From Sipunculus nudus (Eukaryota; Annelida; Sipuncula; Golfingiida; Sipunculidae), in the NCBI GenBank assembly GCA_026874595.1, contig CM049313.1:70114659-70178658 (forward strand): 64,000 nt of DNA, in the 5' to 3' direction. The position numbers and the translations under genes were made by a program. Shown here one piece after another: positions 1 to 59,556 of this stretch. Within the stretch, counting starts at the first letter, position 1; every line of letters begins with the position of its first letter. The notes beneath the pieces are model-generated. The model was given only the letters and a program-made list of their open reading frames with translations, did no database searches and had not been told where the DNA came from.

Positions 1-1320
1 ATGGTGAAAATCACACAAAATCATTAATTTCTCAATAAGGGATGCATGCATTGGTCAAAAAATCAACTTGACCGAAGATCTTGGATAGTAATGTCATGTA
101 CCAGAAACAGGTGGTGCCACCTGTTATTCTTTTACTTGTTTTCGTGCCGTTTAATACCCCATCATTGCCACTTAACAGTACATTTATAACCTGTGAGCAT
201 TATAAGTCAAAAACTAATGGACAGATTTCTTTCATATTATGCATATACATAGACATGGGTTATGGGATGATGTATATATAAATTGGGGTCATGACCTTTC
301 CTATTAGAGTGGCCTTGACCTTGAATATTGCCATATATGGTGAAAAATTACACAAAATCATTAATATCTCAAAAAGGGATGCATGCATTGGTCCAAAAAT
401 CAACATGTTCGAAGATCTTGGAAAGTATTGTCATGTACCGGAAACAGGTGGCGCCACCTGTTATTCTTTTACTTGTTTTGTGCCGTTTAATACCCCATCA
501 TTGCCATTTATCAGTACTGTGAGCATTATAAGTCAAAAACTAATGGACAAATTTCTTTCATATTATGCATATACATGGATATGGGTTATAGGATAATGTT
601 TATTTGAATAGGGGTCATGACCTTTCCAATGAGTGGCCTTGACCTTGAATATTGCCATATATGGTGAAAATCACACAAAATCATTAATTTCTCAATAAGG
701 GATGCATTGATTGGTCCAAAAATCAACTTGAACGAAGATCTTGGATAGTGTTGTCATGTACGGGAAACAGGTGGTGCCACCTGTTATTCTTTTACTTGTT
801 TTCGCGCCGTTTAATACCCCATCATTGCCACTTAACAGTACATTTATAACCTGTGAGCATTATAAGTCAAAAACTAATGGACAGATTTCTTTCATATTAT
901 GCATATACATAGACATGGGTTATGGGATAATGTATATATAAATTGGGGTCATGACCTTTCCTATTAGAGTGGCCTTGACCTTGAATATTGCCATATATGG
1001 TGAAAATTACACAAAATCATTAATATCTCAATAAGGGATGCATGCATTGGTCCAAAAATCAACATGTTCGAAGATCTTGGAAAGTATTGTCATGTACCGG
1101 AAACAGGTGGCGCCACCTGTTATTCTTTTACTTGTTTTGTGCTGTTTAATACCCCATCATTGCCATTTATCAGTACTGTGAGCATTATAAGTCAAAAACT
1201 AATGGACAGATTTCTTGCATATACATAGACATGGGTTAGGGGATGATGTATATTGAAATTTGGATCATGACCTTTTCTATGAGAATGACCTTTTCTATGA
1301 GTGTGGTCTGATATTAATTG
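1..1320. repeat. Tandem array, two ~330-bp monomers forming a 660-bp higher-order unit
   Basis: The phrase atggtgaaaa...cacaaaatcatta recurs at 1, 337, 661 and 997. Spacings are 336, 324 and 336, so positions 1/661 and 337/997 are each exactly 660 apart and more alike than neighbours. Monomers carry a conserved 'gtggccttgaccttgaatatt' phrase and a centre of dyad, acaggtggcgccacctgt or its one-base variant. Short ORFs here are translated repeat and appear unrelated to any protein family. Confidence 0.9.
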
Positions 1321-1324
1321 TTGC

Positions 1325-1405
1325 TGAAGATGGGGGGGCCTATTCTTAAAGGGGGGGGGATTAATTGTCTGGCGATACTATGGCACCTGCGGTGCCAAGA
1401 AATAT
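1325..1405. repeat. Short module 'gatgggggcctattcttaaag' adjoining the tandem array
   Basis: This ~75-bp module reappears at 11231-11300 and 11711-11780, each time next to monomers of the same tandem family. It ends in 'ggcacctgcggtgcc', an imperfect palindrome. Confidence 0.7.
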
Positions 1406-1439
1406 CTAGTTTCCAGAATAGAACTCTGAGATCACTGAG

Positions 1440-2235
1440 CCGATTCTTCCGAAATTTTGCACAATTATCAGGTCACATGTGAACTGGTGCCAAAATATTT
1501 TGCGTTGACCTCTGATCTTTCCTCTCTCCAGTGCGTCCATCTGTACGTCTGTTTGAATTAACCCACATATCTTCAGAATCGTTTGACCAATCAGGAAAAA
1601 AAAATTTGCACAAATGTAGCCCTTGGATAGCTTTATAAAATACATAGAAAATGGTGGTGCCACCTGCAACCATTTTTCACAGTGTCCATCTGTTCATCTG
1701 CTTTTGGATAAAATCACTCATATCTCTGCAGTGAATGGACTTATCCACTTGAAATTTTGCATGTGAATTCATCCTGGATAGTTTTCTTGATTTTATGACA
1801 GGTGGCACCACCTACATTCGCGTTAAGGCTGCAGACATCGAGGCTTATATCTCAGGACTGGTTTGACGTATCTGCCTAAAATTTTACAATTGTATACAAC
1901 TTGGATACCTCTCTTGATTTTGTGGCAAGTGGCGCCACCTACATACACATTTCCGCTGCAGACATCCATGCTTTTATGCAACACACCTCTCTCTATTTCC
2001 CCTTGCCTCTCAACCAATCCTCCCAAAATTTTGCATGTGTATAGATCTCACATGGCTCTTTATCATACGCAAAACTGGTGACGCCATCTCGACCATTCTT
2101 GCACAGCATCAGTCTGTTTGTATGCTGTAGGATAAAATCACTCATATCTCGGTACTGGTTTGACTTATCTGCCTAAAATTTTGCATGTACATACATCTTG
2201 GATAGCTTTCTCGATTTTGTGGCAGGTGTCAAAAG
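1440..2235. repeat. Degenerate tandem repeat with ggtggcgccacct-type palindromes
   Basis: Phrases such as 'tgaaattttgcatg', 'cttggatagcttt' and 'aggtggcgccacct' recur every ~130-170 bp. A related block lies at 31600-32200. Open frames here lack codon structure and change with each monomer. Confidence 0.75.
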
Positions 2236-2486
2236 AACCTTCAGTCCTCAAGAAATTACAATAAGGGGCCCAGGGTCCCTTTGCTTTTCATGCCTAGGAG
2301 CATCACTGGCATGAAATTTTGACATAAAATTGGTAGGCCTTGCTTTATGAAAGCAATTTCAACACAATAAGGTTATTCTTTTTCTCTCCGTCCCCTTTTT
2401 TATTATTTTAAAAAAAATTTATCTATTCAGTCTGTAAAAATAATTCTCTCTTCTATTACTGGCTTGAAAAATCATCAATGAATTTT
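2236..2486. other. Intergenic, unassigned
   Basis: AT-rich sequence with no supported gene. I see no repeat signature except that it borders the AGCTCAG element starting at 2487. Confidence 0.4.
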
Positions 2487-2546
2487 TAGCTTAGCTGACT
2501 ATAAGTCATCTGAGCTATAGTCGTGGTCCATTGTCCGTCGTCCGTC

Positions 2547-2580
<34 letters not shown>

Positions 2581-3240
2581 GATGTCCGGCAGTAAGACCG
2601 GCACGTTTCGACACCGTTGGACCTACGAATCTGAAATTCGGCATACAGTTAGATGTCCCCAAAATCTCCTACCATGCCGAAAATTGGGTCAATAGGACTT
2701 CGTTCCTTCGAGATATTAAGGAAAAACCTCAATTTTTTATTAGAAATCTATTTTCACACTTCAGGACTGCCTAATATCAAAACCACTCATCTGGTTTTCT
2801 TCATATTTACCATAAATGTTCCTCTATATAGTTCCTATGTACATGCCAGATATTAAGTCAGTATTATATAATTTTAAAAAGTTATGGGCCCAAACATAAT
2901 GGACTTTGTAAAAAAATCAGGAAGATATTTGGTCACTTAAGACCAAAAGTGTTAAAGGTAGGGACCTTTTTTCCAGTAATACAACTTTAATTAATCAAAA
3001 TTTAATTGTATACCAAAAATTAGATCAAAATCTGTTAAATTTTTTTTAAATATTGGCAAAAATATAAAATTGGTACCTTAAATTTTGCCCAACTTTGGCC
3101 ACGGCACATTTTTTTCCTGTAAGTACTGTGGATTTAATTTTCACAGCATGTATACATAAGGATTTAATCTGTTCCACTATGAAATTTAAAAATAAAAGCT
3201 GCAAAATTAGGCTAGTTATTGAATTTTTTTGGAGGCTCTT
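2487..3240 (+). mobile_element. AGCTCAG-type element, 5' head and first body unit
   Basis: It begins with the imperfect palindrome 'tagcttagctgactataagt...catctgagcta', then 'tcgtggtccattgtccgtc' and a (CCGT)n run. A body shared with the copies at 9211, 14380-15077 (-), 16132, 20431 and 48000-48640 (-) follows. No transposase ORF is visible, so it is presumably non-autonomous. Confidence 0.8.
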
Positions 3241-4080
3241 GTTGTATTCCCTTTCATTGTCAAGCAGTCCACTTCGATGACTGTAGGTCCTTCAGTGCAC
3301 ATCTCTATGCTCCCCAGGCTGTTGGCATAATTTTAGATGTCCCAAAAATCTCCTACCATACCGAAAATTGGGTCATTGGGACTTCGTTCCTTCGAGATAT
3401 TAAGGAAAAAAACTCCATTTTCCATAAAAAAAGCCATTGTTACACTTCAAGGCTGCCTAATATCAAAACCACTGATCTGTTTTTGATTGTATATAGTATT
3501 CACATTCTTTCATACATTTTCTATGAACTTACCAAAAATTAGGTCAATATTGGGTATTACTTTGAAGTTATGGGCCAAAACGAAATGCAATTTGTAAAAA
3601 ATCAGGAAATATATTTACTCACCTAACATGAGAATTGCTGAACCTAGAGACCTTTTTTTCAGGAATATAACTTTATTTAATCAAGATTCAATTGTTTACC
3701 CAAAATTAGATCTGAATTTTGCAAATTTTTCAAGTTATTAGCATAAATAAAAAATCAATACCTTAAATTTTGTCCAACTTTGGCACTGTTGATTTAATTT
3801 TCTCAGCATATATACATAAGGATTTAATCTTTTAAAATCTGAAATTTCAAAGAAATTGATTGGAAAGAATAGCTTTTATTCATGTTTTCATACACCATGT
3901 CAAGTGTTGTTTACATCTAGCCCACCTAGTAGTACAGCCTTCACTTGCATTATGTAACCCACCCCAGGCAGCTTGCCTTGGGTCAGCTTGGCCACTACCA
4001 GCAGGCTTCCCCTCTGCCCTGCACCCCCCCCCCCCCCCGATGGTGCATAAACTAGATGAATGTTATTATTTTCTGTAATT
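3241..4080 (+). mobile_element. AGCTCAG-type element, second diverged body unit
   Basis: Phrases of the first body unit recur (atttagatgtccc, 'tcctaccataccgaaaattg', 'gcctaatatcaaaaccact'). The block ends at 'catgtcaagtgttgtttaca' and a poly-C tract near 4025. A close relative occupies 9290-10070. Confidence 0.7.
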
Positions 4081-4599
4081 GATTCATTCTTATTCCAGGC
4101 TATGCTACATTTTAGATTTTGTATTGTACCACCAGGGTTACAATGATTAAAGTGTACATTTAATTGTGTCCACAAAGTGGTGTATTGCTATGAAAGTGTG
4201 GATGTTCTTGAGATAAGAAATTCCTTACTTCAGAGGAGTAAAAACTTCACCAGGTGTGAAATTGACTATTAATTCCAGTAATAAATTAAAACTGGGATAG
4301 TAATTAGCACAATGATATTGTTTGTCCCTCATTCAACCAACAGTGTGTATACTTTATTTGAAAAGATGTTTTATTTTATCAAATTTACTGAATCTTTTAT
4401 TTTATTTTGGTGAATAAAATTAAGCATGTACTGAAAACTCTAATGTGCAAAAATTTTTAATAGTGATTCAAGGAATATTCTTGTAGATGCCATGTTGTGG
4501 CATTATTTTCTTTTAAATTCAGTTTAAACATTTATGATTTAAAATAATAAAATATATGTGTATGCATAATATAACCCAATATGAGCTACACTCTGGATA

Positions 4600-4730
4600 T
4601 ATGATGATTGCAACTTTTGCAACAATTCTAATATTTTAACTTATAGTTTCAGTTTTTTACTCTGTATAAATAATGATTGCAACTTTTGCAACAATTCTAA
4701 TATTTTAACTTATATTTTCAGGTTTTTTTA
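4600..4730. repeat. 70-bp tandem duplication
   Basis: 'tgattgcaacttttgcaaca' and its downstream context occur at about 4604 and 4674, almost identical over ~45 bp. Confidence 0.85.
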
Positions 4731-4936
4731 TTAAAAATTTATAAAACCTGTAAATAAAAAAATGATTCAGATAAAAACTTTTAATGGAAAAAGTGGATAT
4801 GCTTAAAAAAAATAGGCTTATATATAAACTTAAATGCATTATTCCCTTGAAAGTGAAATAAAGGTATTAGTCCATTCTGTCCACTTGCCTGTCCATCTGT
4901 AAATTTTCATATGCATTACAGTATCTCAAAACTTCT

Positions 4937-5848
4937 ACTGTTTTTCTTCATGACAGTCTTGTCAGAGTATTAGTTTGCAATCATATATTTAGAACTTTAC
5001 TATAACCAAGTAGGAGGGCCCCTTTCCTCTTAGCTTTTCATATTCTTATATAAATGAAAAACATTACAATAGAATATTTCTACATCCATCTTCGTTTGCC
5101 CTCACTTTTCCCTTCGCTGAACCCCATCCAAAAGTCAGCCTCAGTAAGCAAGAACAAGATGAAACAGATATATTCATACTTTAATATTTTGTATAACTAT
5201 TCGTCCATAGGTACCTATGTACATGCCAGAAATTATGTCAATATTGTGTAATATGTAGACAGAGTGGGCATCACAATAATTTACCTTGTCAAGACTAAAG
5301 AGATATTGTGTCATACTGTCACAAATTCATAAATCACTTCATCAGCATAGTTAATCATAACATCATATCTGTCAAATTGAAAGCTTGCATTTACTGTTTT
5401 TCTTCATGACAGTCTTCTCAGAGTATTAGTTTGCAATCATATATTTAGAACTTTACTATAACCAAGTAGGAGGGCCCCTTTCCTCTTAGCGTTTCATATT
5501 CTTATATAAATGAAAAACATTACAATAGAATATTTCTACATCCACCTTCGTGCTGCCCTCACTTTTCCCTTCTCCGAACCCCTTCCCAAAGTCAGCCTCA
5601 GTAAGCAAGAACAAGATGAAACAGATATATTCATACTTTAATATTTTGTATAACTATTCATCCATAGGTACCTATGTACATGCCAGAAATTATGTCAATA
5701 TTGTGTAATATGTAGACATAGTGGGCATCACAATAATGTACCTTGTCAAGACTAAAGAGATATTGTGTCATACAGTCACAAATTCATAAATCACTTCATC
5801 AGCATAGTTAATCATAACATCATATCTGTCAAAACTGAAAGCTTGCAG
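4937..5848. repeat. 456-bp tandem duplication
   Basis: Two nearly identical copies begin with actgtttttcttcatgaca at 4937 and 5393. A more diverged copy lies at about 26160-26500, showing that this is part of a dispersed element body. Confidence 0.9.
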
Positions 5849-6825
5849 ACTACCATACACTTTAGATCCTTCAACAAATAGCCTTATCATCATTCTACCA
5901 CTGCTTATTACTGCTGTCATTGCATTCATATTTGCTCAAATATATCACAATTTTTCAACCCCTCCTAAATAAATAAAAAATAAACCACTATATTTGACTC
6001 TATTAATCCATCAGTCAGGTTATTTCATTTATCATTTACTCACATATTACATTACATTCCTTTAAAATAGCCCAACATGTCCATGATATTCATAAGCTTT
6101 ATCGACTCGATATAGTATCACAGCGGAGAAACATTTATAGTCCAATCACGATCAGCTGAGGGCCGTGACCCATGGGTCCCTTGTTTTTTCTAAATTAGTT
6201 TCATTTTGCAAATTCCCAGCCTACAATCAAATTTGGTATGTTAATAGTTTACATATTCCTGTGGCACATTTGGCCTTGATACCACTCGGGCAAAATATGG
6301 GGCTTATAATAACCTTAAAGAGGACTGGATTTTAATTATCTCAGTTTACAAAAGTAGCTACTACCTTTGTTGTACATCATCATTTTTACATACATTTTAT
6401 GTATGTTTTACAAAAATTTAAGCTACATGCAAAACATATAAACCATCTGTTGTTATTAAATTTTTATGCAAATTCTAAATATTTTACAGTCATGTCATGC
6501 TTTGAAACAGACAAATTGTGTGAATAAAATAACATTGTAAATCAAGGAAAAGTAAAAACAACAAAAATTGATTGATTATTCATGCAGAAATGTCATAAGA
6601 ACCACGATGAGTTATGAAATCTTAAAGAGAATTAAAATTTACTAAAAGTAGTGATTGTGATGAAAAATGTATTTTAACATCTGTTACATAAAATAAAAAG
6701 CCTTGCTCATCAGCTGAGTGCCATTAACCATAGGTCACTTGTTTCTGTGCTGGTATAATTAGGATATTAAAAAATATTCTCATAATCAATTTCAGCTGAG
6801 CACTGTGACCCACAGGTCCCTTGTT
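5849..6825 (+). mobile_element. AGCTCAG-element 3' part, with three tail motifs
   Basis: The tail phrase CAGCTGAG(C)...GTGACCCAT(A/G)GGTCCCTTGTT occurs at 6153-6185. Diverged copies lie at 6711-6745 and 6793-6825. The first tail matches the body seen at 26160-26714, so 2487-6185 may be one composite ~3.7-kb insertion. No gene is seen here. Confidence 0.65.
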
Positions 6826-7035
6826 AAGATTGATAATAAAAATATTTAAAGAAGGTTAAATAGATGAAAATAGATGCTGGATTGGCAGAAGATTTTTAAA
6901 TTATGCATCTTACTAAATAATTATAATTATAAGATGCCTCATGACAAGGACTATGAGAATATGGCATCATTGCTGTGAGGCATTTAGTTATTATTGATAT
7001 TCTTATTTTTTCTTCCATTTTTTTATCCACCACAG

Positions 7036-8623
7036 GGAGCTCAAGTTTTAAAAGTTCAGTGCCAGATAGAGTTGAGACATTATCAAGTCAGCAGACAAAC
7101 CAAGAACAGAAACCTACCCTATGCCCAGAGAACCGGTTGTCTTATACCCAGTGCCCTGATAAAGATGGAAGTAGCCCACAGCCTGCAAACTCAAAACGAA
7201 CCTTTGTCACAGAACCTGAAAGCTATAGAGACTCACAAAGCAGTGACCAGTTGGTAGCAAGTGTGAACACAACTGCAGAAAAAGTGCCATTGGATACAGA
7301 AAAATCTTCCACGATTGATATAAAATCACGAACAAAAACTGGCATTAGTAAAGTGTCTCTACCTACTGTTAATTCATTAGGAGCTGAAGTAAGAGAAAGG
7401 GTTAGAGATGAAATTAAGGGTTACGTGTTTGGGAAAAAAGAAGACCACATCAACTGTGAGGATGTAGGCAATGTGTGTGGTGGAGGATCACATATAGACG
7501 CTCAGGAAGATGAATTTAATAAACTCCGTAGTAAACAGAAATATGTGTATGAACCCAGCAATAAAGAAACTTATGTTGATAGACCCTGTAGTAAACAGAC
7601 ATACATAAAGCCAGTAGAAGAGTGGCCCACGGAGGAGCCTAGGGTTTATGAACATGAAATACCAGCAGCTTTACGTGACCGTCAGATATACGATGCAATG
7701 TTTATCCATGCTGGAAATCCGGAGGATGAGGAGATTGCACTAAAACTTGCACACGGCATGGAAGACAATATCATATTGGATGGAGGTGAGAAACCAAAAG
7801 TGTATGTGCAGGTCAGGGATGAACAGTTTGGCCGCAGTAAAATAAATGAGATGGATAATGCAAATAAGTACAGTACTTTCAAGTTTGTGATAGTTTCAAA
7901 ATATTTGACAGAAGATAAATGGGCCAGAATGATGAAAGACGAAGCCCTTGTGGATGCCATTGAAAAGGAGGAGCTCAATTGGAGTGTGATACCTGTGCAT
8001 ACACAGTTGTCTGGGAAACGGGAATACGAGGTGCCATTTGGACTCAAAGCTCTGAATGGAATCATCTTCACTGGTGAGCAGTCTAAATACTTTTATACAA
8101 AAATTGGAAAATCCCTTAACAGCAAATTGTCTGTTAGAAGAGAGAGAGAAGACAATCTGAAACAGGAGAAGGAAAAAGCACTAAGTCAGATTCATGAGAG
8201 AAAAATGGATGAATTGAGGCTAAAAAAACATAAAGAACGCATGGAACAGTTGAAAAAAGAAGAAACAAGGAGGAAACAGTTTGAAGGGTATCGAAGGGAT
8301 GAGGAGAACGTAAGGCGCCACATGCAAGATGTGCATGTTGATAACCCTGATACTGTTAATCATTGGAAGCGGGAGCAGCAAGCTCCTCCAAGGACATCAA
8401 CCTCCGTACCTCAAAAAATGCATCATAACGGTTCATCCTCAGCACCCAAAGGTCAAGTTCAAGGTCATCAGAGTAATTATCATATTACCATAAAAACTGC
8501 ACAAAATGTCCAAATAGGGGATTCTGTCCACATGGAGCATGGTAATAGGAGAATGGTATCTCATGGAACAGGAGAGGAAGTGGAGTATGAGGTTCAGGAA
8601 GAGAAGGGCACCTCTGGTGACAA
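7036..8623 (+). CDS. TIR- and RHIM-containing adaptor (TRIF/TICAM-like), large exon
   Basis: This is an internal exon of a probable innate-immune signalling adaptor. The open frame runs back to 6975, but no ATG starts it and 'ttccatttttttatccaccacag' makes a strong 3' splice site at 7035, so the exon starts at 7036 in phase 1. Counting from its first residue: 1-165 polar and probably disordered; 166-193 has three ~10-residue SK..Y repeats; ~216-362 is a TIR domain (YDAMFIHAG at 219-227, BB-loop region RDEQFG at 261-266, FVIVSKYL near 284, and a C-terminal helix NGIIFTGEQSKYFYTKIGKS typical of TICAM-like TIRs); 368-430 is a Lys/Glu/Arg-rich probable coiled coil; 491-500 NVQIGDSVHM is a RHIM core, preceded by KTAQ. 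The BB-loop proline is replaced by Phe265. The exon ends in GACAA|GTAAGT (phase 2). Reading through gives a TAA three codon positions later, so intron retention would end the protein just after the RHIM. The N-terminus is not in the sequence I could assign. Confidence 0.85.
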
Positions 8624-8629
8624 GTAAGT

Positions 8630-8960
8630 GAACTTCATTCTGATCTGCAACATCCTATAACCTTTTCTCCTTTTGAAAAATTATGGTGTCATAGTGGCCA
8701 TCAGTGATATAGGGCTCAAGTTGATTGTTTCAGCCTGCGAGGTGTTATTATTACATTTCTGCTGGGAGGGCTAGGAAATTAGAAGTGATGATGTAACACA
8801 TGCAGTGCATGTCATGCACCCTGCAGGCTGAAACTTTTGTGCCAGCTCACTGAAAAATGCACCCAACACAAAGGGTCACAACAAGTACCGCTCAGAACTT
8901 TGTATGTGATGAAGGTAGAGGCCTGTGGGTCTGTATATACTACAGAGCCACAATTTGGTC
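8630..8960 (+). repeat. Dispersed repeat related to the 50.08-50.45 kb inverted-repeat element
   Basis: Intronic. Shared phrases include gatgatgtaacacatgca, gctgaaac and 'gtatatactacagagcc', all also found in 50083-50446. The sequence is strongly diverged. Confidence 0.6.
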
Positions 8961-9210
8961 TAGGACTGTAACTACTTTTCTAAGGGCCGGAAACTTGGGT
9001 CAGACTCCAGTATCCCTGGACTCAGACTAACACTTGAACTCAGATAGTGTTGACTCAACTATATGACTGGTATCCACATAACAATGTTTGCCAGTGACCC
9101 TTTCTCGTCTGAGAAGTGTCGTGTTCCAAGTATTGTAAAATCCTGTTTGACATCTATCAAAAGAATCTTCTTGACAGCTTTACTATTGCAACATAATTTC
9201 TCTAGCATTA

Positions 9211-10075
9211 TTAGCTCAGCTGCATGACTATAAGTCATCTGAGCTAAAGTCATGGTCCTTTCTCCGTCCGGCTGTCCGTTAACAGGGCACGTTTTGAAAC
9301 CGTTTGACCTATGAATCCAAAATTTTGCATACTGTTAGATGTCCCTAAAGTCTCCTACCATACCGAAAATTTGGTCACTAGGACTTAGTTCCTTCTAGAT
9401 ATTAAGTAAAAACCTCCATTTTCCATAAAAAAAGCCATTGTGACACTTCAAGGCTGCCTAATTTCAAAATCACTGATCTGTTATTGATCATATTTAGAAT
9501 TCATATTCTTCCAAAAATTTTCTATGAACATACTAAAAATTAGGTCAGTATTGCTTAATGTTTTGAAGTTAAAGGCCCAAATATAATGCAATTTTTAAAA
9601 AATTTGGAAATATATTTACCCCCTTAGAATGAGAATTGCTGAAACTGGAGAGACTTTTCTCAGGAATATATCTTAATTTAATAAAGATTTTATTGTTTAT
9701 CCAAAATTGTATCTGAATTTTGCAAATTTTTCAAGTTATTAGCATAAATAAAAAATCAGTCCCTAAATTTTGTCCAACTTTGGCAACGGCATGTTTTTTT
9801 CCCTGCAAGCACTGTTGATTTAATTTTCACAGCGCATATACATAAGGATTTAATCATTTAAAATCTGAAATTTCAAAGGAATTGATTGAAATGTGTAGCT
9901 TTTATTCAAGTTTTCACACACCATGTCAAGTGTTGTTTACATCTAGCCCACCCAGTGCTACAGCCTCCACTTGTGTTATGTAACCTACCCAAGGCAGCTT
10001 GCCTTGGCTCAGCTTGGCCACTACTAGCAGACTTCCCCTCTGCCCTGCCCCCCCCCCCCCCTCAAGTACTATATT
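9211..10075 (+). mobile_element. AGCTCAG-type element in the TIR-gene intron
   Basis: The head 'tagctcagctgcatgactat' is followed by only a short CCGTCCGG stretch, then the common body and a poly-C tract at ~10048. No 3' tail motif was found, so the copy is probably truncated. Confidence 0.75.
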
Positions 10076-10299
10076 AGATCAAGGTGACATACTGTGTTCG
10101 TTTGATGGCATGACTAAAACTTTATTTCTATTACTTGATTTTGAACACCAAGTTTCCCAGGATTTTGGTTTTATTCAAGGCTGCTGGAGAGCTGAAGTAG
10201 TTTTTGATTTGTGTGTTAGTTTTTGACGAATCACTCCTCAATATTTGGACATCACTGATACTAATGATATTTAACAAATCTATTAATTAGATTAATTGT

Positions 10300-11785
10300 A
10301 TCCCCCCAATTGTGGGGGATACTATGGACTTCTGTCAGTCCTGGTGCCACCACTGCAGATAAATCTTGTCTTTGTGATAACTCAAAAATTACTTCACAGA
10401 TCTTTACCAAACTTGATATGTGCATAGATATGGGCAAGAGGACAAAACCTAAATTGGGGTTATGACCTTCACAAGGAGAGTGACCTTGGCCTTGAATATG
10501 TCCATTTTGGTGGATATTACACAATTTCTCAAAAATCTCACTAAATCTAGCATGGATTGATTCAAAAACATGTTGACCAAAGATCCTGGATAGCCTTGTC
10601 ATGTGCCATAAACTGGTTGTGCCACCTATTATTCTTTTCTTGTTTTTATGTTTTTTAATACCCCATCATTGCCATTTGACAGTACTTTGAGCATTATAAG
10701 TCAAAAACTAATGGACAGATTTCTTTCACATTATACATATATACATAGATATGGGTTATGAGATATATTTGAATTTTGGTCATGACCTTTCCTGTGAGAG
10801 TGGCCTTGACTTTGAATACTTATATATTTGGTGAAAATCACGCAGATTCTTAAATATCTCTAGAAGTCTTGCATGGAATAATCCAAATATCAAGTAGACT
10901 GATGATCTGGGATAACATTGTCATGTACCATAAACTGGTGGGGCCACCTTTTGTTCTTTTCTTGTTTTGGCACCTTTTATTACCCCAATCATTGCCACTT
11001 GACAGTACTGTGGACTATAGTAAAAAACTGATAGACAGATTTCTTTCATATTATGTATAAATATAGATACGGGTTATTGAATAAGGTACACTTTAATCGG
11101 GGTCATGACCTTTACTATGAGAGTGGCCTTGACCTTGAATATATCCATATTTTGTGGAAAAAAATATTGTTTCTCAAATAGATGGAAGAAACCATGGTGG
11201 CTTGCCTAGTGTCAGTATATGATTCTGAAGATGGGGGCCTATTCTTGAAGGGGGGATTAATTGTCCAGGGATCCTATGGCACTTGCGGTGCCAAGATATG
11301 TCTAGTTATTAAAATCACACAAAATGTTAAATATCTTGATAAAGGATGCATGGTTTGGTCAAAAAGACAAATTGACCAAAGATCTTGGATAGCTTTGTCT
11401 TGTGCAGGAAACTGATGGTGCCACCTTTTGTCCATTTTATGTTTTGCACCTTTTAAAATCCCCTTCATTGCCACAATACAGTACTGAAAGCATTATAAGT
11501 AAAAAACTAATGGACAGATTTCTATCATATTATGCATATACATAGATTAGGTTATGGGATGAGATATATTTAAATTGGGATAATGACCTCTCCTATGAGA
11601 GTGGACTTGACCTTGAATATTCCCATATTTGGTGGAAAAATATTGTCTCTCAAGTTGATAGACCGAAGAAACCATGGTGGTTTTCCAAGAATCAGTATAT
11701 GCTTCTGAAGATGGGGGCCTATTCTTGAAGGGGCAATTAATTGTCCAGGGATTCTATGGCACTTGTGATGCCAAGATATGTCTAG
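10300..11785. repeat. Tandem array related to the one at 1-1320, inside the TIR-gene intron
   Basis: Monomers with 'gtggccttgaccttgaatat', 'tcatgtaccataaactggtg' and 'tttgagcattataagtcaaa'-type phrases recur near 10501, 10826, 11144 and 11621. Two copies of the gatgggggcc module are interspersed. The open frames are repeat-derived. Confidence 0.85.
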
Positions 11786-12850
11786 CTTTTATAGTGATAT
11801 CCAGTGTGAGTTGTTGCTTCAGGTGGATCATTGTAAAACAGCCACTAATAACAAAACATGTTTATGGTCATGCTAAAGGGGTTTAATTTACACTTTTTCA
11901 CTGCAAAAGGTTCAGTTTTGATGCTGTTCACTACTTTTTGTCTCTAATAGGCTTTAAATATTATGAGCTCAGCTAACTGAAAATAATCTGAGTTGTACAT
12001 TTAGGATGATCCTTTGTCTGTCATCTGTCTGGCCGAATGACCAAGTGGCCATCTGTCAACGTTGAACAAATCAATCAAGTTCAAGGCCTGATATTGTGCA
12101 TACAGTTAGTCAGGAACATAAACTGTTTCCATACCTGTCATTGGCAGGGCATGACTTTGAACAATAAGAACAAGAAGCTATAATTAAGTGTATGCAATAT
12201 AAATTTAAAATCTAATAATTTGTAACTTCTGTAATTATGCAAATTTCTAGAAGCTATTTTCAAATCATGAATATAGCAACTTATTGATTATTCTTCTTTT
12301 ATAGTCAGGACTGTTGAAGGGATGTTTCATTTTTACTCACAATGTATTATGATATACCCACAGTCTGTCCATTTGTCTGTCTTCCCAGGGCTTTGATGGA
12401 TTTTAACAAAACTCACTGTAACTACTTATCAATAGATTGTGGTGAGTTAAATTATAGACAAAATCCATACATATTTAATAAGGTCAAAGTTCACGAGGCT
12501 ACTGTGTGGTTTGGTAGTGAATATGATGAATTTTGATGAAACTCAACAGAAATGTTAACCAATATAATATCTTGCCATAGTTTGATTCCTGGCAAAATCA
12601 AAGCATATTTAATGAAGTCTGAGGTTACCAGACTTTTGTAGCACTGAGAGGACTTATAAAAATCTGATGTATATTCATAAAACTCATAAATATTAATGAA
12701 TACAGTTTCCAACCTGAATTTATTTCTGGGCAAAATTCACACATATTTAATGAGGTTAGAGGTTACAAGACATAAGAAAAAAGGCATATTATGCTTGTTT
12801 GCTGTGCACTTGTTGAAGCAATTCTTCTCAGAATTCACATTTTTTTCCAG
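11786..12850. other. Intron sequence of the TIR gene
   Basis: It contains a degenerate AGCTCAG head at about 11964-12070. Otherwise it is AT-rich with weak internal similarity ('tgatgaaactca', aatttaatgaggtca) that also appears around 18780-19320. No exon is recognised until 12851. Confidence 0.5.
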
Positions 12851-12996
12851 AAACCTAAGTGGGGCTGGTGCTAGAATTGGGTCAGGAAAGGTCATGACCC
12901 CAGGCATGGCTGACCCAGGAGGAGGGACACACTGGGACAGACGAGCTCATCAACCGCCAGACTCTTCATCATTGGGGATGCATCATCCTCTCGCAG
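12851..12996 (+). CDS. TIR/RHIM adaptor gene, penultimate exon
   Basis: A 146-bp exon with a clear polypyrimidine tract and acceptor (cacattttttccag|AAACC) and a donor CTCGCAG|GTATTT. It enters in phase 2, matching the 8623 donor, and leaves in phase 1, matching the 15257 acceptor. All 48 whole codons are open and the stretch is GC-richer than its flanks. It encodes a Gly/Pro/Ser/His-rich, probably disordered segment (residues 531-578 of the joined protein). Residues 537-545, ARIGSGKVM, share the IG....M spacing of a RHIM core but lack the usual Q; I treat this as a possible degenerate echo only. It has no recognised domain; the assignment rests on phase and position. Confidence 0.7.
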
Positions 12997-13182
12997 GTAT
13001 TTTGTATGAAGTTTCAACATTTTGATTGTGCAGTATAAAAAAATATTCTACAGGAATCACCCCTCCTTGTCATGTTTGAAAGAATCACAGGCAGTAGAAC
13101 TTTATAGAAAAAGATACAGTTTGCTTCAATTGATAGTTTTTTCCAAGGCAACTTGATTTTTTTTTCTAGCAAGATTTTAATT

Positions 13183-15077
13183 AACAAGGGACCTATGGGT
13201 CACTGTGCTCAGCTGACATTAACCTTGAAGGTAAAAATCTAAAATAATATCTAATGGAGATAAAGTGTAAGAGGAAGAGGTAATAAAGGCCATGGTTGGT
13301 TTATATGATTGGTTTGTATTGATGAGCAAGAAATTGTTGCAAAAAATATTTTGTGACCTGACCATGTGTTTCCTAATGTTGAAACTAAAGCATGTGAGCA
13401 GTTTGTGAACAAATGTTCTGTACTATTACCATGATCATTAGTTGGTTTTTCGATTAACTGTTGACATTTCAGTAGTTTACACATTTGTTCAATTGAATTT
13501 ATTTTTTTGCATAATATATATTTTTAATTATATATGTATTTTTTATGAAATGTATACAGCTGAAATATAGCTAATTAACAACATTAAACAGGGCAAACAA
13601 AGCCTGATCTCAAATTCTGCTGAGGCAGGAAAATAATGAACAAATGTTTGTATTAAATCCTGATTGTTTTATCACATCAATTATTTTCTAATTTAAGTTT
13701 ATATTTCTATACATTTCCAATTTAACATATATATTTAAATATAAAAGTTGATTCATAATTCTCAATTGCATCATCATAAATCTCAATCTTGTCAGATAAC
13801 ACCAAATCATGCATACAAATGTTTATTTATTTTTCAGCACAAAAATATATCTTTTAAATCTGCAAAACAATAAATATCTAAAAATAATACTTGATTTAGA
13901 TTTCAAAATTTTTAATTGTGTCTTTATTTATCCATAATGTGCTTCATATTTTATAATAATTTAAGCATACTGATGGGTTCATTTATATTTGTTAAAATCA
14001 TTTAAAAGAAAATTGATTTCTTTAAAAATGCTACATTACACAATATTGCATCTTCTGGATTACACCTTGAATTATTTTTTTTCAAGGAAAGTTTTTGCAT
14101 ATTGGAGTGGAAACAGCATTACAATTAAGGAGATACAGTGAAAACAATAACAATTACTGCATAACACTTGGTGGGTTGGGTTTGTGGGGGGGGGGGGGAT
14201 GATTGGGGTGGTGATATGAGAATAACTGTACACCTGTCACAGCAGGGGATCTCCCCCAGTGACTGTAACAAATCAGAAACCCTGGCATAGCTGACTTCCA
14301 GTGACCTGGAGTGGGACCCTGCATCTGTAATCAAAGCAAGTGACTACAGAAAAAAAAAATCAATAACTAGCTTAATTTTCAAGCTTTTATTTTCAAATTT
14401 CAGATTTAGACAAACTAAATATTTATGTTTACATGCTGTGAAAATTAAATCAATGGTGCTTACAGGAAAAAAACGTGCCATGGTCAAAGTTGGGCAAAAT
14501 TTAAGGTACTGATTTTTTTTTATGCTAATAACTTAATAAAATTTACAAAATTCAGATCTAATTTTGGGTAAACAATTGAATCTTAATTATACATAGTTAT
14601 ATACTTGAGAAAATAGACTCTAGTTTCAAAATTTTTCATTTTAAGTGAGTTATTATTTTTCCTGATTTTTTACAGAGTCCATTATGTTTGGGCCCATAAC
14701 TTAAAGAATTTATACTTTACAGACTTAATTTCTGGCATATACATAGGAACTATATAGAGGAATATTTATGGTAAATATGAGGAAAAACAGATGAGTGGTT
14801 TTGATATTAGGCAGTCCTGAAGTGTGAAAATAGGATTTTAATAAAAAATTGGGGTTTTTCTTTAATTTCTCAAAGGAACGAAGTCGCAAAGACCCAGTTT
14901 TCGGCTTGGTAGGAGATCTTGGGGACATCTAACATAATGCTGAATTTTGGATTCCTAGGTCTTACTGTTTCAAAACGTGCCACATCTACGGACGGACGGA
15001 CGGACAGACAGACGGACGGACGACGGACAATGGACCACGACTATAGCTCAGATGACTTATAGTCAGCTGAGCTAAAA
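13183..15077 (-). mobile_element. Full-length AGCTCAG-type element inserted in an intron
   Basis: Read on the minus strand it starts at 15077 with tttttagctcagctgactat, passes a (CCGT)n run near 14990-15020 and the shared body. It ends at 13183 with the tail motif (plus strand: aacaagggacctatgggtca). It sits wholly between the last two exons of the TIR gene. Its 3' half matches 22600-23285 on +. No coding capacity is seen. Confidence 0.8.
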
Positions 15078-15256
15078 ATGCAGGCCTGAGTGACAGCACT
15101 GAAAGTGAGCGAGGTAAATTGATGATGAATTTCGGACCCAAGACTGGCAACCTAACATACAGGCAGGCTCATCTTGACTTGTACCAACTAAGTGTGTCAC
15201 AAGAAGCAGTGATGACTTAATGTATATGATTCAGTATGGTCTTGTCATCATTGCAG

Positions 15257-15459
15257 GTACAATAGATGCTGACACATTCACAAGCGAAGTAGAGAGTCAA
15301 GCTCAACAGGAGGATAAGCCTGATGCCTCTAGGATGGTGGAGAAACTACTGGGGACAACAGCTAATCCAGACAGAGGCAGAGCCGCTCATTGTGCTTGTA
15401 GTGCTAAATGTGGCCATCAGATGGCAGCAGATGACCCTGCACAAAATAAACCAGTGTGA
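15257..15459 (+). CDS. TIR/RHIM adaptor gene, terminal coding exon
   Basis: The acceptor cttgtcatcattgcag|GTACA enters in phase 1, exactly as required by the 12996 donor. The frame then runs 66 codons to TGA at 15457-15459. With the two upstream exons this gives 645 residues for the part of the protein present. The peptide is acidic and polar, then carries H623-C624-x-C626-x3-C630-x-H632, a cluster that could bind a metal; no named zinc-finger class fits, so this is only a suggestion. The context (end of a TIR-RHIM protein) is known; the function of the tail is not. Confidence 0.7.
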
Positions 15460-42489: not shown

Positions 42490-43880
42490 CGCTTTGTTCA
42501 TTTTGCACCACTGATCTCGCCCGGAGACAGTTTTTTACCACTTGTGCACAGTAGTAAGCAAACGCATCAGAAAGGAATATTGGCATATACCATAATATGT
42601 AGAGGTGAAAAACACACAATGTGTATATAGTGCATATCACTACATGTGCATATATTTAACATGCCAGGTATATGAATGGGTCCCTTTAATATAAACAACA
42701 AGATATGATTTTAGACAGTCCCAAACTGTTAAGAGAAAACAATGTCTGTTTAGTTTGTAAACCCGTTAGGAAAATTAATTTTTTTATGCTGTTGTTCCTG
42801 TTTACTTTGTTTTATGTGCAGTCAGAATTGTTTTTATTTATTTTTTAAAGCATTTAAAACAAAGAGATGTCAAAAATTAACAAAAGAATAATACCATGCT
42901 TTTTAGGCTTCGTGGGAAGGTGAAGAACAAAAATGTATAGAGTGTCACATTTTTACCAAAAAAATTCACACAGAACAAAGTTTCTACATAATAGTATACT
43001 ATTTTTTTATTTTTTCGCATCCCTGTTGATCATTTTGAGACATAAACATGTTTACGACCTATCTGCACGAAAATTATCAGGAGACTATGAGCGATATAAT
43101 TACAATATTGATGTATTTGAGTATACGTGATTCAGTTATATTTAATGCAGCACTTGCACTGGTTGTCGCAAAGTCTTTAGCACTGGACGCTGAGTGCTCC
43201 ATGTGAAAACCTACATTACAAATATACAGTGTACAAAGGGAGATAAAGAAAATAATAATGTGATAATAAACTGGAATGTCCCGTTAATGAATCTTGCTCT
43301 ATATGGTGATTAAAGATTTAAATTTCTTATACGAAACCCGTCTATATATAGAAAGTGGTATTTCATAACTTAAACGACGACCAGTGTTATCAACCAGCGA
43401 GATACAATACCTACAGCTTATACCTGCACGTTTATACGGGTTATATCAGCTTTGCCCACTGAAGTACACCGGGGTCAAACGCACCCAGCCATGGGTCGAA
43501 CGCCATAGACTAGGATATTAGTGACAGGAGTATAGGCACGAACCAGCCGACCGCTAGTTCCGCATTTTTATAATAACCTACTATCACCTACCTGCAATAG
43601 TCAAAGCCTGAGCATAAGCACTCTGTTCAAATTATTTTCACTTTATATTGAAAATGATGGACAGAATGGTCCGCTTGGTGGGGATAAAGCCTCAGTATGC
43701 AGCCTTAGTTTCCAAAGCCTCACTATGTATCACTACAGGTTTGTTCTTGGCCATTTTTGGGTATGCTGTTCCGCTGGGTAAGTTCGTCACTAAGAGTGCA
43801 CTAGATCATGTAAAGAAAAACGAAAAGGAACCCATATGTAAAGTGGCGATCAATGATATAGTGTCAACTAGAGGTAAAAA
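42490..43880. other. Intron of the PAN-ILEI gene
   Basis: A further exon for the N-terminal ILEI strand is expected somewhere between 38772 and 43887. I could not identify it. 43430-43600 is GC-richer. Confidence 0.4.
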
Positions 43881-43887
43881 GACTCAC

Positions 43888-44185
43888 TGTAGATGGCGAC
43901 ACCTGGCGCTGGGGTGTAGAACTCTGAGCTGTCACAGCACCATCTCGAGAGCTGGCATAGCCCCTGATTCCTATCATAGCTGACGCTGCCACAAGATTCG
44001 TGCTGCATACACAGAAGTACACAGCCCCCTATACATCCAGTCTTAATGGCCGGAAGAATGACCTGGTCTTCCTCACTGAATCGACTTTCAGAGACCTCCA
44101 ATTTAAACCGGCTCATCACGACGCCATATATGCCATAAAAACAAAGCGATGCAACCAAGAAAAACTGTTGCATTGTGGCACTCAT
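43888..44185 (-). CDS. PAN-ILEI gene, first coding exon (signal peptide and PAN/apple-like domain)
   Basis: ATG at 44185-44183 opens 99 codons plus one base. The first ~24 residues (MSATMQQFFLVASLCFYGIY...) are a signal peptide. Residues ~28-99 form a PAN/apple-like module with Cys at 51, 55, 59, 65, 77, 83 and 84, including C-x3-C-x3-C and the typical ESCGSVSYDRNQGLCQLS stretch (a central CxxxxYxxxxxxCxL). The exon ends ATCTACA|GTGAGT in phase 1, compatible with the phase-1 acceptor at 38772, so the two could be joined directly or with symmetrical exons between. PAN modules bind proteins or glycans outside the cell. A secreted PAN-ILEI protein would be a lectin- or cytokine-like factor; this is inference. 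Confidence 0.65.
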
Positions 44186-44189
44186 GTCC

Positions 44190-45478
44190 GCATGGTTAGA
44201 AAAATATGCAAGAAGCTCTATTATATTAAACTCTCCGCCTTCCCTCTCATAAGGTTGCGATATTTTTATCTACTGTTTCTCACTGAGGATCATTTGAAAC
44301 TGGTGATGATTTGACAGACGTTGAGGTGCACTAAGAAAGATTGTCAGGAGTTTGCCATCACCCATGCGTACCCAGGCCTGTTAATCATTTAATTGCACTC
44401 GAGTAACCCCTTTTCTCTCTATTAATGCCCGGCAAAAACAATATTGATCATTGTGACAAACTGCCTCTTTTAAAAAGTCAATTAACTGATTTTAATGTTT
44501 TTCAGCTGGGACGCACCATTTTATATTAAATACGATGACGACTGTATACATGTTGTCGATGTTATGTCTGTTTGTTAAAACAAATTTTAAAAAGCACTCT
44601 TTATTACGGTACATCAGGCTGAAATTTACTTTGGAAAAAACACAGAAAATTTATCTCCATCTCTTTTGCACTGAAATGCGTGTACTTCATTGATTGATGC
44701 TCCCTGTTGCAGTGGAATATCAGGCAGGCTACTATATATGTATAGATTTAGGATTGTTTATTTATTGATGACAGGTGAGAGTGGCCCTATATGTTGTTAT
44801 ACTTTAGCAGTATTATTTCTTTTTGAGATAAACCTGGACAATTTTTTTTTTGGTGTTAGGTTTAAAACAATGAGATATTCGAGACGTGCTAACCGGGTTA
44901 ATCTGCGACTTATAATTCAGACAAAAAACTGGCCTGACCTGGGTCATGTAATGTTGGACACAATGCGTTCTTAAATCATTGGGGTAAGCCTATGAAAAGT
45001 TGTTCTTCAGTAAATGCCAGATCATGGAATCTAGGATCCCACTAAAGACACTTGGGGCAGAGGAGACACGCAAGTTGTCTAGAAGGAGGACATGGACGCA
45101 CTGTGATGTTCATATAAGACCACCATGGCAGAGTGATCCGGAGGCGTCAATATAGTGGAGATGGGGTATATATTCCCCACCACTTTTTAGCCAGCGGGAT
45201 GGGTCAATGTAATCATCCCCCCTGCTATTCAGAGAATAATATTGATATATTGGGAATGAAATATATTAATAACGAGCTGATAAACCTGGTATACCGGGAT
45301 TTTTAACGGGGTTGGGGAGATGTATTAAAGAAGAGTAAGAATCATGGCTCACTTTTTTATTCTAAAATTAAAGGAAAAAGATAGATTTTCAGTGGGACAC
45401 TGTTCAAATCTTTGAACATTTATTCTATGGCGCTGCGCTCATGGCAAGAAATATACTCAATTGCTTGGGAAAAAATAA

Positions 45479-57632: not shown

Positions 57633-58525
57633 TACGGTGGCTCGTATAGGACATGCACAGAATTATTTTTATCTCGTTCCCACGAGATAGTATCTCGTTC
57701 CCACGCGTTAGTATCTCGTTCCCACGCGATAATTATCTCGTTCCCACGCGTTAGTATCTCGTGGCCACGCGATAATTATCTCGTTCCCACGCATTAGAAT
57801 CTCGTTCCCACGCGTTAGTATCTTGTGGCCACGCGATAATTATCTCGTTCCCACGCGTTAGTATCTCGTTCCCACGCGTTAGTATCTCGTTCCCACGCGT
57901 TAGTATCTCGTGGCCACGCGATAATTATCTCGTTCCCACGTGTTAGTATCTCGTTGCCACGCAATAATCATCTCATTCCCACACGATACTGTCGCGTGGC
58001 CACGCGATAATTATCGCATTGGAACGAGATAAATGTAGACAGATAATACAGTAAGACCTACATCTTTAATCCTTGAGGCATGTTTCTATACACTGGATGA
58101 AGACTATGGTCAATTATTTGCATGAATTTAGAGCGGACTTAATATGCTGAGACCTGAAATGATACAACGGGCAATCGTACAACACTCGTGGGCCATGATT
58201 GTTTGGAGAATGTGTGATATATATATATATATATATATAAATAAGGGCCGTAGCCTGACACAAATGGCAGGGGAGGGATTTGATGGGGTAATCCCCGAGG
58301 GGGTGGGGGTGGGGGTGGGAGGGGGTCTCATCCTTCCAAGGTTTTTTTGGTCAATGCTTATTAAGTAAAACAGTACCTCTTTTTAGGGAGATTATTTGTT
58401 ATTTGGCTGGCAATGGATTCATTTACACACAGAATATCAACTTTTTTCACCGCAAATCCCGGAGTCTGCGGCCCTGTATATATGGTACTCCAAGTACTGA
58501 TTGCTCGAAGCGCCCGAGCAGAAGA

Positions 58526-58592
<67 letters not shown>

Positions 58593-59556
58593 CATATATA
58601 TATGTGAGGGTGCAAATACCCAAAAATAATAGAGTGGATGTTTTTATACATATCAATATGGCTCAACCCCCCCCCCCCCCCAAAAAAAATAAAATTTATT
58701 AGGGGGGCTCGGCCCCCGCGCATCCCCCCCCCCCCCCTCACGGTTTCGCCGCCTATGAATATATAACTTAAGTTTTATTGTGGAAAGAAAAATGTGAAGT
58801 GGAAGAATGAGCAAATTTCTCGTTAAAAGATCTCCTTAACCCCTCCCCCCAGTCATAATGAAGTGGCATGGCTGAGACCTTTTGTTGTAAGCTTCTCCCT
58901 TGAGACATAACACAAACCGACATGTTGTTTACCCTGTTCTGTATACCCGAAATTAAATAACTCCAACCCTAGTCCTAAAAAATAAGATTTTCTGGGAAGC
59001 TAAAATACAAACAAGTGTTTCAGTTTAATTCATGTTTGGTACACAAGGGTTTATATCACCCTACCCTAAAACAAACTCAATACAGTTTTCCATGAACAAA
59101 TAAAAATGGCCTATAGTTGAACCAACGCAATGAAATGGTGAACCAACATAATGAAAACTGCTGAAATTTACCTCATAGCATTCGGCGCAAACACACATAC
59201 AACGAAATACTTACAAACAATTTAAGCTGAATCGACGCTTGATATAAAACAGAACACAGACATTCTTGTCCAAATGAGGGCTTAAGCTAGCATGGCATAC
59301 TTACGCGTGGCCACGCGATACTAACGCGTGGAAACGAGATAATTATCGCGTGGGAACGAGATACTATCGCGTGGGAACGAGATAATTATCGCGTGGGAAC
59401 GAGATACTATCGCGTGGGAACGAGATAATTATCGCGTGAGAACGAGATACTATCTCATGGGAACGAGATAATTATCGCGTGGGAACGAGATACTATCGCG
59501 TGGGATCGGGAACGAGATAAAAATAATTTTGTGCATGTCCTATACGAGCCACCGTA
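57633..59556. mobile_element. Foldback element, 1.9 kb, with tandem-repeat inverted arms
   Basis: Both ends carry the same inverted terminus, TACGGTGGCTCGTATAGGAC followed by ATGCACA and AATTATTTTTATCTCG. Inside, the left arm (57676-58032) and right arm (59302-59520) are arrays of ~20-bp units of the type TATCTCGTTCCCACGCG, in opposite orientation. The centre (58034-59300) holds a (TA)n tract, poly-C runs and no transposase. This is the architecture of Drosophila FB foldback elements. The immediate flanks (aatcgc / aattgc) are only a weak target-duplication candidate. Confidence 0.8.
58531..58600. repeat. (TA)n microsatellite inside the foldback element
   Basis: Interrupted TA tract, followed by poly-C blocks at 58666-58681 and 58725-58738. 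Confidence 0.95.

Follow-up and report, generated by a model that had tools for sequence, protein, structure and literature searches.

A TICAM-like TIR exon with a RHIM-like motif: a candidate adaptor for amyloid signalling in a probable protostome

We analysed a 64,000-nucleotide stretch of genomic DNA (contig CM049313.1, positions 70,114,659 to 70,178,658; hereafter the window) for one exon, termed exon A, which encodes a TIR domain followed by a RHIM-like motif. The TIR domain is closest to that of TICAM2 in the Protein Data Bank (PDB), the TIR domain precedes the motif as in TRIF, and exon A is under purifying selection. These features suggest an adaptor of the TICAM type that carries a RHIM-like amyloid motif and would couple a TIR receptor to RIPK1-type signalling. 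We assign a probability of roughly 0.58 to this reading, the signalling being its conjectural part. The parts of exon A are as follows.

7036..8623, plus strand: exon A, with an N-terminal stretch, the TIR domain, a charged linker, the RHIM-like motif and an acidic tail
7656..8129, plus strand: TIR domain, TICAM (TRAM)-like, from PDB searches with phmmer, Pfam TIR_2 and the ratio of nonsynonymous to synonymous substitution (dN/dS)
8130..8474, plus strand: charged linker rich in Lys, Glu and Arg, from reading of the sequence; helical by eye only
8475..8534, plus strand: RHIM-like segment NYHITIKTAQNVQIGDSVHM, with the core VQIGDSVHM at 8508-8534
8624..8629, plus strand: donor GTAAGT, containing the in-frame stop TAA at 8625-8627; either a splice donor or the end of the protein

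A sequence-only reading of the window had described TIR motifs, a charged segment and the decapeptide NVQIGDSVHM in a single exon. This arrangement is borne out by a plus-strand open reading frame of 556 codons at 6957-8627, by the TIR matches described below and by NVQIGDSVHM at 8505-8534. Exon A opens after CCACAG, with the acceptor at 7034-7035, and ends in ACAA followed by GTAAGT, with the donor at 8624-8625; the donor context TGACAAGTAAGTGA is the same in the paralogous copy on contig C17. The N-terminal ~200 residues are probably disordered, as judged by eye.

The kinship of the TIR domain emerged from searches of a PDB library of 177,635 distinct sequences. With the TIR slice as the query, phmmer returned three TICAM2 (TRAM) sequences (E 3.3e-4 to 6.1e-4), and the single further row up to E 10 was not a TIR protein. 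A profile built from four TIR sequences of this genome reached TICAM2 at E 3.6e-6 to 5e-6, followed by a non-TIR protein at 0.1, and a paralogue from contig C9 gave TICAM2 as the sole TIR, weakly, at E 0.036-0.061. TICAM2 was the only TIR obtained from four PDB queries, namely exon A, the TIR slice, the C9 paralogue and the four-sequence profile. When TICAM2 itself served as the query, 29 sequences were reached, including TICAM1, TLR1, 2, 5, 6, 10 and MAL; those TIR domains are therefore present in the library and were simply not reached from the window. Pfam TIR_2 matched the TIR slice at E 0.00095 and the whole frame at E 0.012, and it matched the copies on C17 (E 1.1e-5) and at 39.9 Mb on C9 (E 4.6e-4), all under the curated cut-off. 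The TIR domain of exon A is thus closest to TICAM TIR domains when judged against PDB chains only, and we take it to be TICAM-type on this sequence evidence, in line with the TICAM/TRIF-like TIR domain proposed earlier. A glutamate four residues after a tryptophan aligned in these TIR domains is linked to nicotinamide adenine dinucleotide (NAD) hydrolase activity. None of the four TIR copies has glutamate at the fourth residue after the aligned tryptophan (phenylalanine in one of them), and a scaffold role is therefore more probable than NAD hydrolysis.

Exon A is not alone in this genome (1.43 Gb, 153 contigs). Used as a query, it identified six places at four loci: the window, C17 at 35.844 Mb (two pieces), C9 at 39.948 Mb and C9 at 25.940 Mb (two pieces). 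When the C9 exon served as the query instead, those four loci came back together with one fragment in a frame of 61 residues. The C17 copy retains an intact frame of 415 residues, has its acceptor and donor context in common with exon A, and encodes a TIR domain 87% identical to that of exon A. We estimated dN/dS between exon A and the C17 copy with our own counting script, with bootstrap ranges in parentheses. The ratio was 0.36 (0.25-0.52) for exon A overall, 0.16 (0.08-0.30) for the TIR domain, 0.24 (0.13-0.46) for the linker, 0.23 (0.07-0.73) for the motif with eight residues on each side and 0.44 (0.12-1.90) for the acidic tail. The plus-strand DNA similarity between the two copies begins 48 bases before the exon and stops 11 bases past its end. 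Together with the purifying dN/dS, this boundary indicates that exon A is maintained as coding sequence.

Other parts of this family behave differently. The N-terminal part of exon A (7036-7655) gave a dN/dS of 2.13 (1.06-7.51) against C17 in a gappy, unreliable alignment, reflecting either rapid change or misalignment. The TIR paralogue at C9:25940233-25940726 lies in two pieces in different frames, and this copy is therefore apparently broken. On the minus strand of C9:39948001-39958000, ankyrin-like frames, recognised by eye and without a Pfam match, lie upstream of the TIR exon. The same region holds a frame of 409 residues with sub-threshold Pfam matches to GT4-conflict (E 0.2) and DUF6760 (E 0.16). 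The TIR exon and the frames upstream of it perhaps form a larger TIR protein.

The motif itself contains the tetrad VQIG at 8508-8519, which agrees with the RHIM tetrad (V/I)-Q-(V/I/L/C)-G as it appears in the relevant part of PMC9444067. All nine residues of the core are identical in the C17 paralogue, with one synonymous change within it. The four replacements in the 20-residue segment all precede the core, and two more come after it at 528 and 532. A codon-degenerate pattern of the motif occurred over the genome at the exon A and C17 loci only, and the reversed-pattern control gave 0 places. EAD10 (PF19954), an effector-associated domain of bacteria, matched the motif slices of both exon A (E 0.028, 14.9 bits) and C17 (E 0.027, 15 bits), below its curated cut-off of 24.1 bits, with alignments at profile positions 43-62/63 in both. 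EAD10 matched none of eight shuffles and not the one reversal; one of the eight motif-slice shuffles matched the unrelated FGE-sulfatase family at E 0.072. The EAD10 profile need not contain a RHIM core. On these sequence features, RHIM identity of the motif is plausible. Of the earlier RHIM claim, the tetrad and the TRIF-like order stand and are kept in one paralogue, while the strict consensus and the Pfam RHIM family failed to recognise the motif. The label "strict RHIM" was rejected because the asparagine is absent and Pfam RHIM is silent.

Similar words are found in bacteria. A scan of a prokaryote collection (84,980 genomes by description) with the pattern N[VI]QIGD[NH]N, run without a control, returned 24 stretches, 19 of them in a frame of at least 40 residues. 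Six of these 19 proteins were scanned with Pfam. Two were NB-ARC/TPR proteins in which the word lies on the N-terminal side of NB-ARC (L053:1-2322 and L049:3212-5920, both on the minus strand; Chloroflexi and Streptomyces niger). Pfam RHIM matched one NB-ARC protein at E 0.036 and another of the six at E 0.05, both below the cut-off. The NB-ARC cases agree with published links between BASS3 and RHIM, as far as the pertinent parts of PMC7889193 and PMC12261475 describe them. By eye, 6 of the 19 frames encode hexapeptide-repeat proteins, and the word alone is therefore not specific. The motif slice gave four weak matches in plasmids (E 5-7), all annotated as mandelate racemase-like. Three stretches in viral contigs fitted a pattern for relatives, and none was confirmed.

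Several results weigh against an amyloid adaptor. The fuller RHIM pattern [IV]Q[ILV]GxxNx[MLI], as given in part of PMC9440496, does not fit VQIGDSVHM, in which V replaces N. Pfam RHIM (PF12721) gave no match on the motif slices even at E<=10, and over the genome it gave no place above the cut-off and three below it, each in a frame of 21 residues and none at the exon A locus. Profile hidden Markov models thus bear out the TIR part of the sequence-only reading, with TIR_2 under its cut-off, and leave its RHIM part without a match. No PDB chain was reported for the motif slice. The dN/dS of the 20-residue motif alone is 0.43 and loosely bounded (0.08-infinity), and an identical run of ~10 residues is not rare at this divergence (~0.03 by our own arithmetic). 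AlphaFold models of the TIR domain were poor, with a mean predicted local distance difference test score of 41.7 from a single sequence and 40.5 from four sequences; a Foldseek search of the PDB with the TIR model gave 285 matches at E<=10 and none at E<=0.001, and nothing was drawn from it. Neither Pfam nor a strict RHIM DNA pattern revealed a convincing RHIM partner in this genome. The strict pattern occurred at 40 places, compared with 39 for the reversed control, and is therefore not enriched; the eight places read, in frames of 14-58 residues, showed nothing like a RHIM exon. In the 644 residues read of the joined protein (exon A with the two candidate exons described below), from which the N-terminus, a possible site of such motifs, is missing, TRAF6 and pLxIS motifs had no match, and a loose TRAF2/3 pattern had five. 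The TRIF N-terminal domain (PF17798) had no match in the genome, where its control was silent too and the N-terminal exons were not located.

Part of this evidence would suit an adaptor that is TICAM-like in its TIR domain and signals via the TIR domain and linker only, the VQIG word being a chance match or another short interaction segment. When the 644-residue joined protein was shuffled 20,000 times, 3.97% of the shuffles contained the tetrad, 0.405% the relaxed form of nine residues and 0.015% the strict form. Across all six reading frames of the window, the tetrad was seen at six further places, each within a frame of 8-77 residues. No tetrad was seen on the gene strand near the two distant C9 paralogues, where ~19 kb and ~10 kb were read. 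EAD10 was not reported on the whole proteins, and its genome search did not return the exon A or C17 loci; it gave two places below the cut-off, and the one read was a mobile element by eye. The unmet strict consensus, the silence of Pfam RHIM and the bacterial hexapeptide-repeat proteins with a similar word point in the same direction. A chance word is nevertheless opposed by the 9/9 identity of the core in the paralogue, by its TRIF-like position and by the EAD10 matches on both slices compared with 0 of 8 shuffles, and we regard this alternative as possible, yet rather unlikely.

Two further explanations concern ancestry. Exon A might encode an ordinary orphan TIR protein, specific to its lineage and belonging to the expanded TIR set of molluscs, that came to resemble TRAM by convergence and has no link to TRIF function. 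The TICAM2 matches are indeed remote (16.6-30.3 bits), TIR_2 stays under the curated cut-off in the three copies scanned, and diverse orphan TIR proteins are reported for Aplysia in the part of PMC9334734 concerned with them. No other TIR class came from any of the four PDB queries, however, and we consider an orphan origin improbable. The motif could instead have been captured independently by a TIR adaptor from a bacterial-type amyloid motif of the BASS3/EAD10 kind, converging with TRIF from a separate ancestry. No family other than EAD10 was reported for the motif slices, and NVQIGD-type words stand N-terminal to NB-ARC in two of the six bacterial proteins scanned. The EAD10 matches reach 14.9-15 of the 24.1 bits required, though, with the caveat on its RHIM core given above, and metazoan RHIMs have the same tetrad, making such a capture very improbable in our estimate.

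A TICAM-type adaptor with a RHIM-like motif, the reading we prefer, might work in the following way. The TIR domain of the cytoplasmic adaptor would be recruited by an activated TIR receptor, and the resulting clustering would bring the RHIM-like tails together. The VQIG core could then nucleate a short amyloid templating a RHIM protein, for example a RIPK1-like kinase as in the zebra mussel. This assembly might lead, without MyD88, to NF-kB activation or to regulated cell death.

Comparison with known systems places exon A between several of them. With vertebrate TRIF/TICAM1 it shares a TICAM-type TIR domain followed by a C-terminal RHIM-type tetrad. It differs from TRIF in a core without the RHIM asparagine, a possible C-terminal extension and a probable protostome host; searches for the TRIF N-terminal domain (with a silent control) and, in the residues read, for pLxIS and TRAF6 motifs gave no match. 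The label "TRIF orthologue" was rejected. TRAM/TICAM2 provides the closest PDB TIR domain by sequence, whereas TRAM consists of a TIR domain only according to the section of PMC9440496 dealing with it, and exon A adds a long linker and the RHIM-like motif. The amphioxus TICAM (bbtTICAM) is likewise an invertebrate TICAM-type adaptor, but the same section of PMC9440496 describes the RHIM as not conserved in Leptocardii, nor in the TICAMs of ray-finned fish. The RHIM, PP and BASS3 amyloid motifs also have a [VI]QxG-type core in a short segment, whereas the exon A motif is missed by Pfam RHIM and has D-S-V after the tetrad in place of the metazoan x-x-N. For the scallop C. farreri, the legend of a pathway figure in PMC12521104 lists TRAM/TICAM2, a bivalve component of the TICAM2 type; that paper made no search for a RHIM, and its excerpt does not mention one.

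Previous reports bear on the novelty of such a protein in both directions. No clear TRIF or TRAM appears in the portions of the surveys of Aplysia (PMC9334734), Mytilus edulis (PMC3308963, with one weak TRAM match) and Saccostrea glomerata (PMC4892480) that list these components, and in the relevant passage of a paper on the oyster genome, TICAM1/2 appears as one of the classes compared (PMC4346834). Among the matches listed, no mollusc TIR-RHIM protein is reported by title or abstract in open PMC. Against novelty, an excerpt of the Mytilus paper (PMC3308963) has TRIF and TRAM identified in cnidarians, a figure legend in a 2025 review includes TRAM and TICAM2 among scallop components (PMC12521104), and a passage of a paper on a cockle iridovirus refers to bivalve-like proteins bearing CARD and RHIM (PMC12452177). 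Public databases may well contain predicted relatives. The zebra mussel has RIPK1-like proteins with a RHIM tetrad, and the C-terminal part of its RIPK1 required the RHIM for full activity in an NF-kB assay in human cells, as far as the corresponding part of PMC12119088 reports.

A bivalve adaptor that carries a RHIM-like tail behind its TIR domain could be the missing link between the surveys without TRIF or TRAM and the RHIM-bearing RIPK1-like proteins. We tentatively raise the broader possibility, doubtful at present, that TIR-to-RHIM wiring predates vertebrates. A TRIF-like amyloid adaptor would then have existed in early bilaterians, persisted in bivalves, where it would be the missing adaptor that acts independently of MyD88, and been trimmed in amphioxus and ray-finned fish. 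Such a protein would allow a direct test of whether amyloid signalling downstream of Toll-like receptors is older than the vertebrates.

The gene may extend beyond exon A on its 3' side, where two candidate exons were considered.

12851..12996, plus strand: exon B, an unproven candidate, from GT-AG sites, phase and a G+C content of 0.56
15257..15459, plus strand: exon C, an unproven candidate terminal exon, from the stop TGA at 15457-15459, phase and a G+C content of 0.48

Joined at 8623/12851 and 12996/15257, the three exons stay in frame up to the stop at 15459, with two and then one base carried over. In a screen with our own thresholds, including an acceptor pyrimidine fraction of 0.65, 8,350 bases contained seven internal-exon candidates without a stop in the phase required; exon B was the longest, and two of the seven are versions of it. 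Its G+C content is reached by 0.4% of windows there. Exon C is in the top 5% by G+C content, and its acceptor pyrimidine fraction of 0.647 falls just under the threshold. A genome search returned no second copy of either exon, and the ~48 kb downstream of the C17 paralogue gave nothing beyond chance-level matches. The frame of exon A ends in TAA inside the donor in both copies, and the protein may therefore equally end there. The phases and in-frame joins of the two further exons claimed earlier hold, while the exons themselves, supported by splice sites, phase and composition, stay unproven.

On the 5' side, the first bases of exon A complete a split codon, and at least one upstream coding exon is therefore missing. 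The first in-frame ATG lies, by eye, inside the TIR domain, so the gene is 5' incomplete here; neither a start codon nor the 5' end of the gene was found. Pfam searches of forward frames for upstream exons gave no family in 1-7035, zf_CopZ alone (E 0.042) in the 10 kb before the window and STAT6_C alone (E 0.087) in the 10 kb before the C17 paralogue, both sub-threshold. Among the best 40 matches of a tblastx comparison of the C8 stretch (~50 kb before the window) with the C17 stretch, there was no common stop-free coding stretch outside exon A; this comparison is weak because 78% of the C8 stretch and 35% of the C17 stretch were lost to repeat masking. Large tandem arrays at 1-1292, 4936-5847 and 10452-11785, with periods of 336, 457 and 322/480 bases, are located upstream of exon A and inside the supposed first intron.

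Elsewhere in the window, an open frame at 43871-44269 on the minus strand carries a PAN_1 domain (E 5e-5, above the cut-off). Two arrays of a 21/43-base unit, at 57670-58006 and 59297-59505, are mutual reverse complements ~1.3 kb apart. A genome search for the molluscan haemocyanin domain gave no match, with a silent control as well. Expansions of C1q-domain proteins are linked to bivalves, and the count in this genome would fit a probable bivalve host, in line with the probable mollusc of the sequence-only reading. The genome contains at least 141 C1q-domain matches, with 150 of 203 candidates scored.

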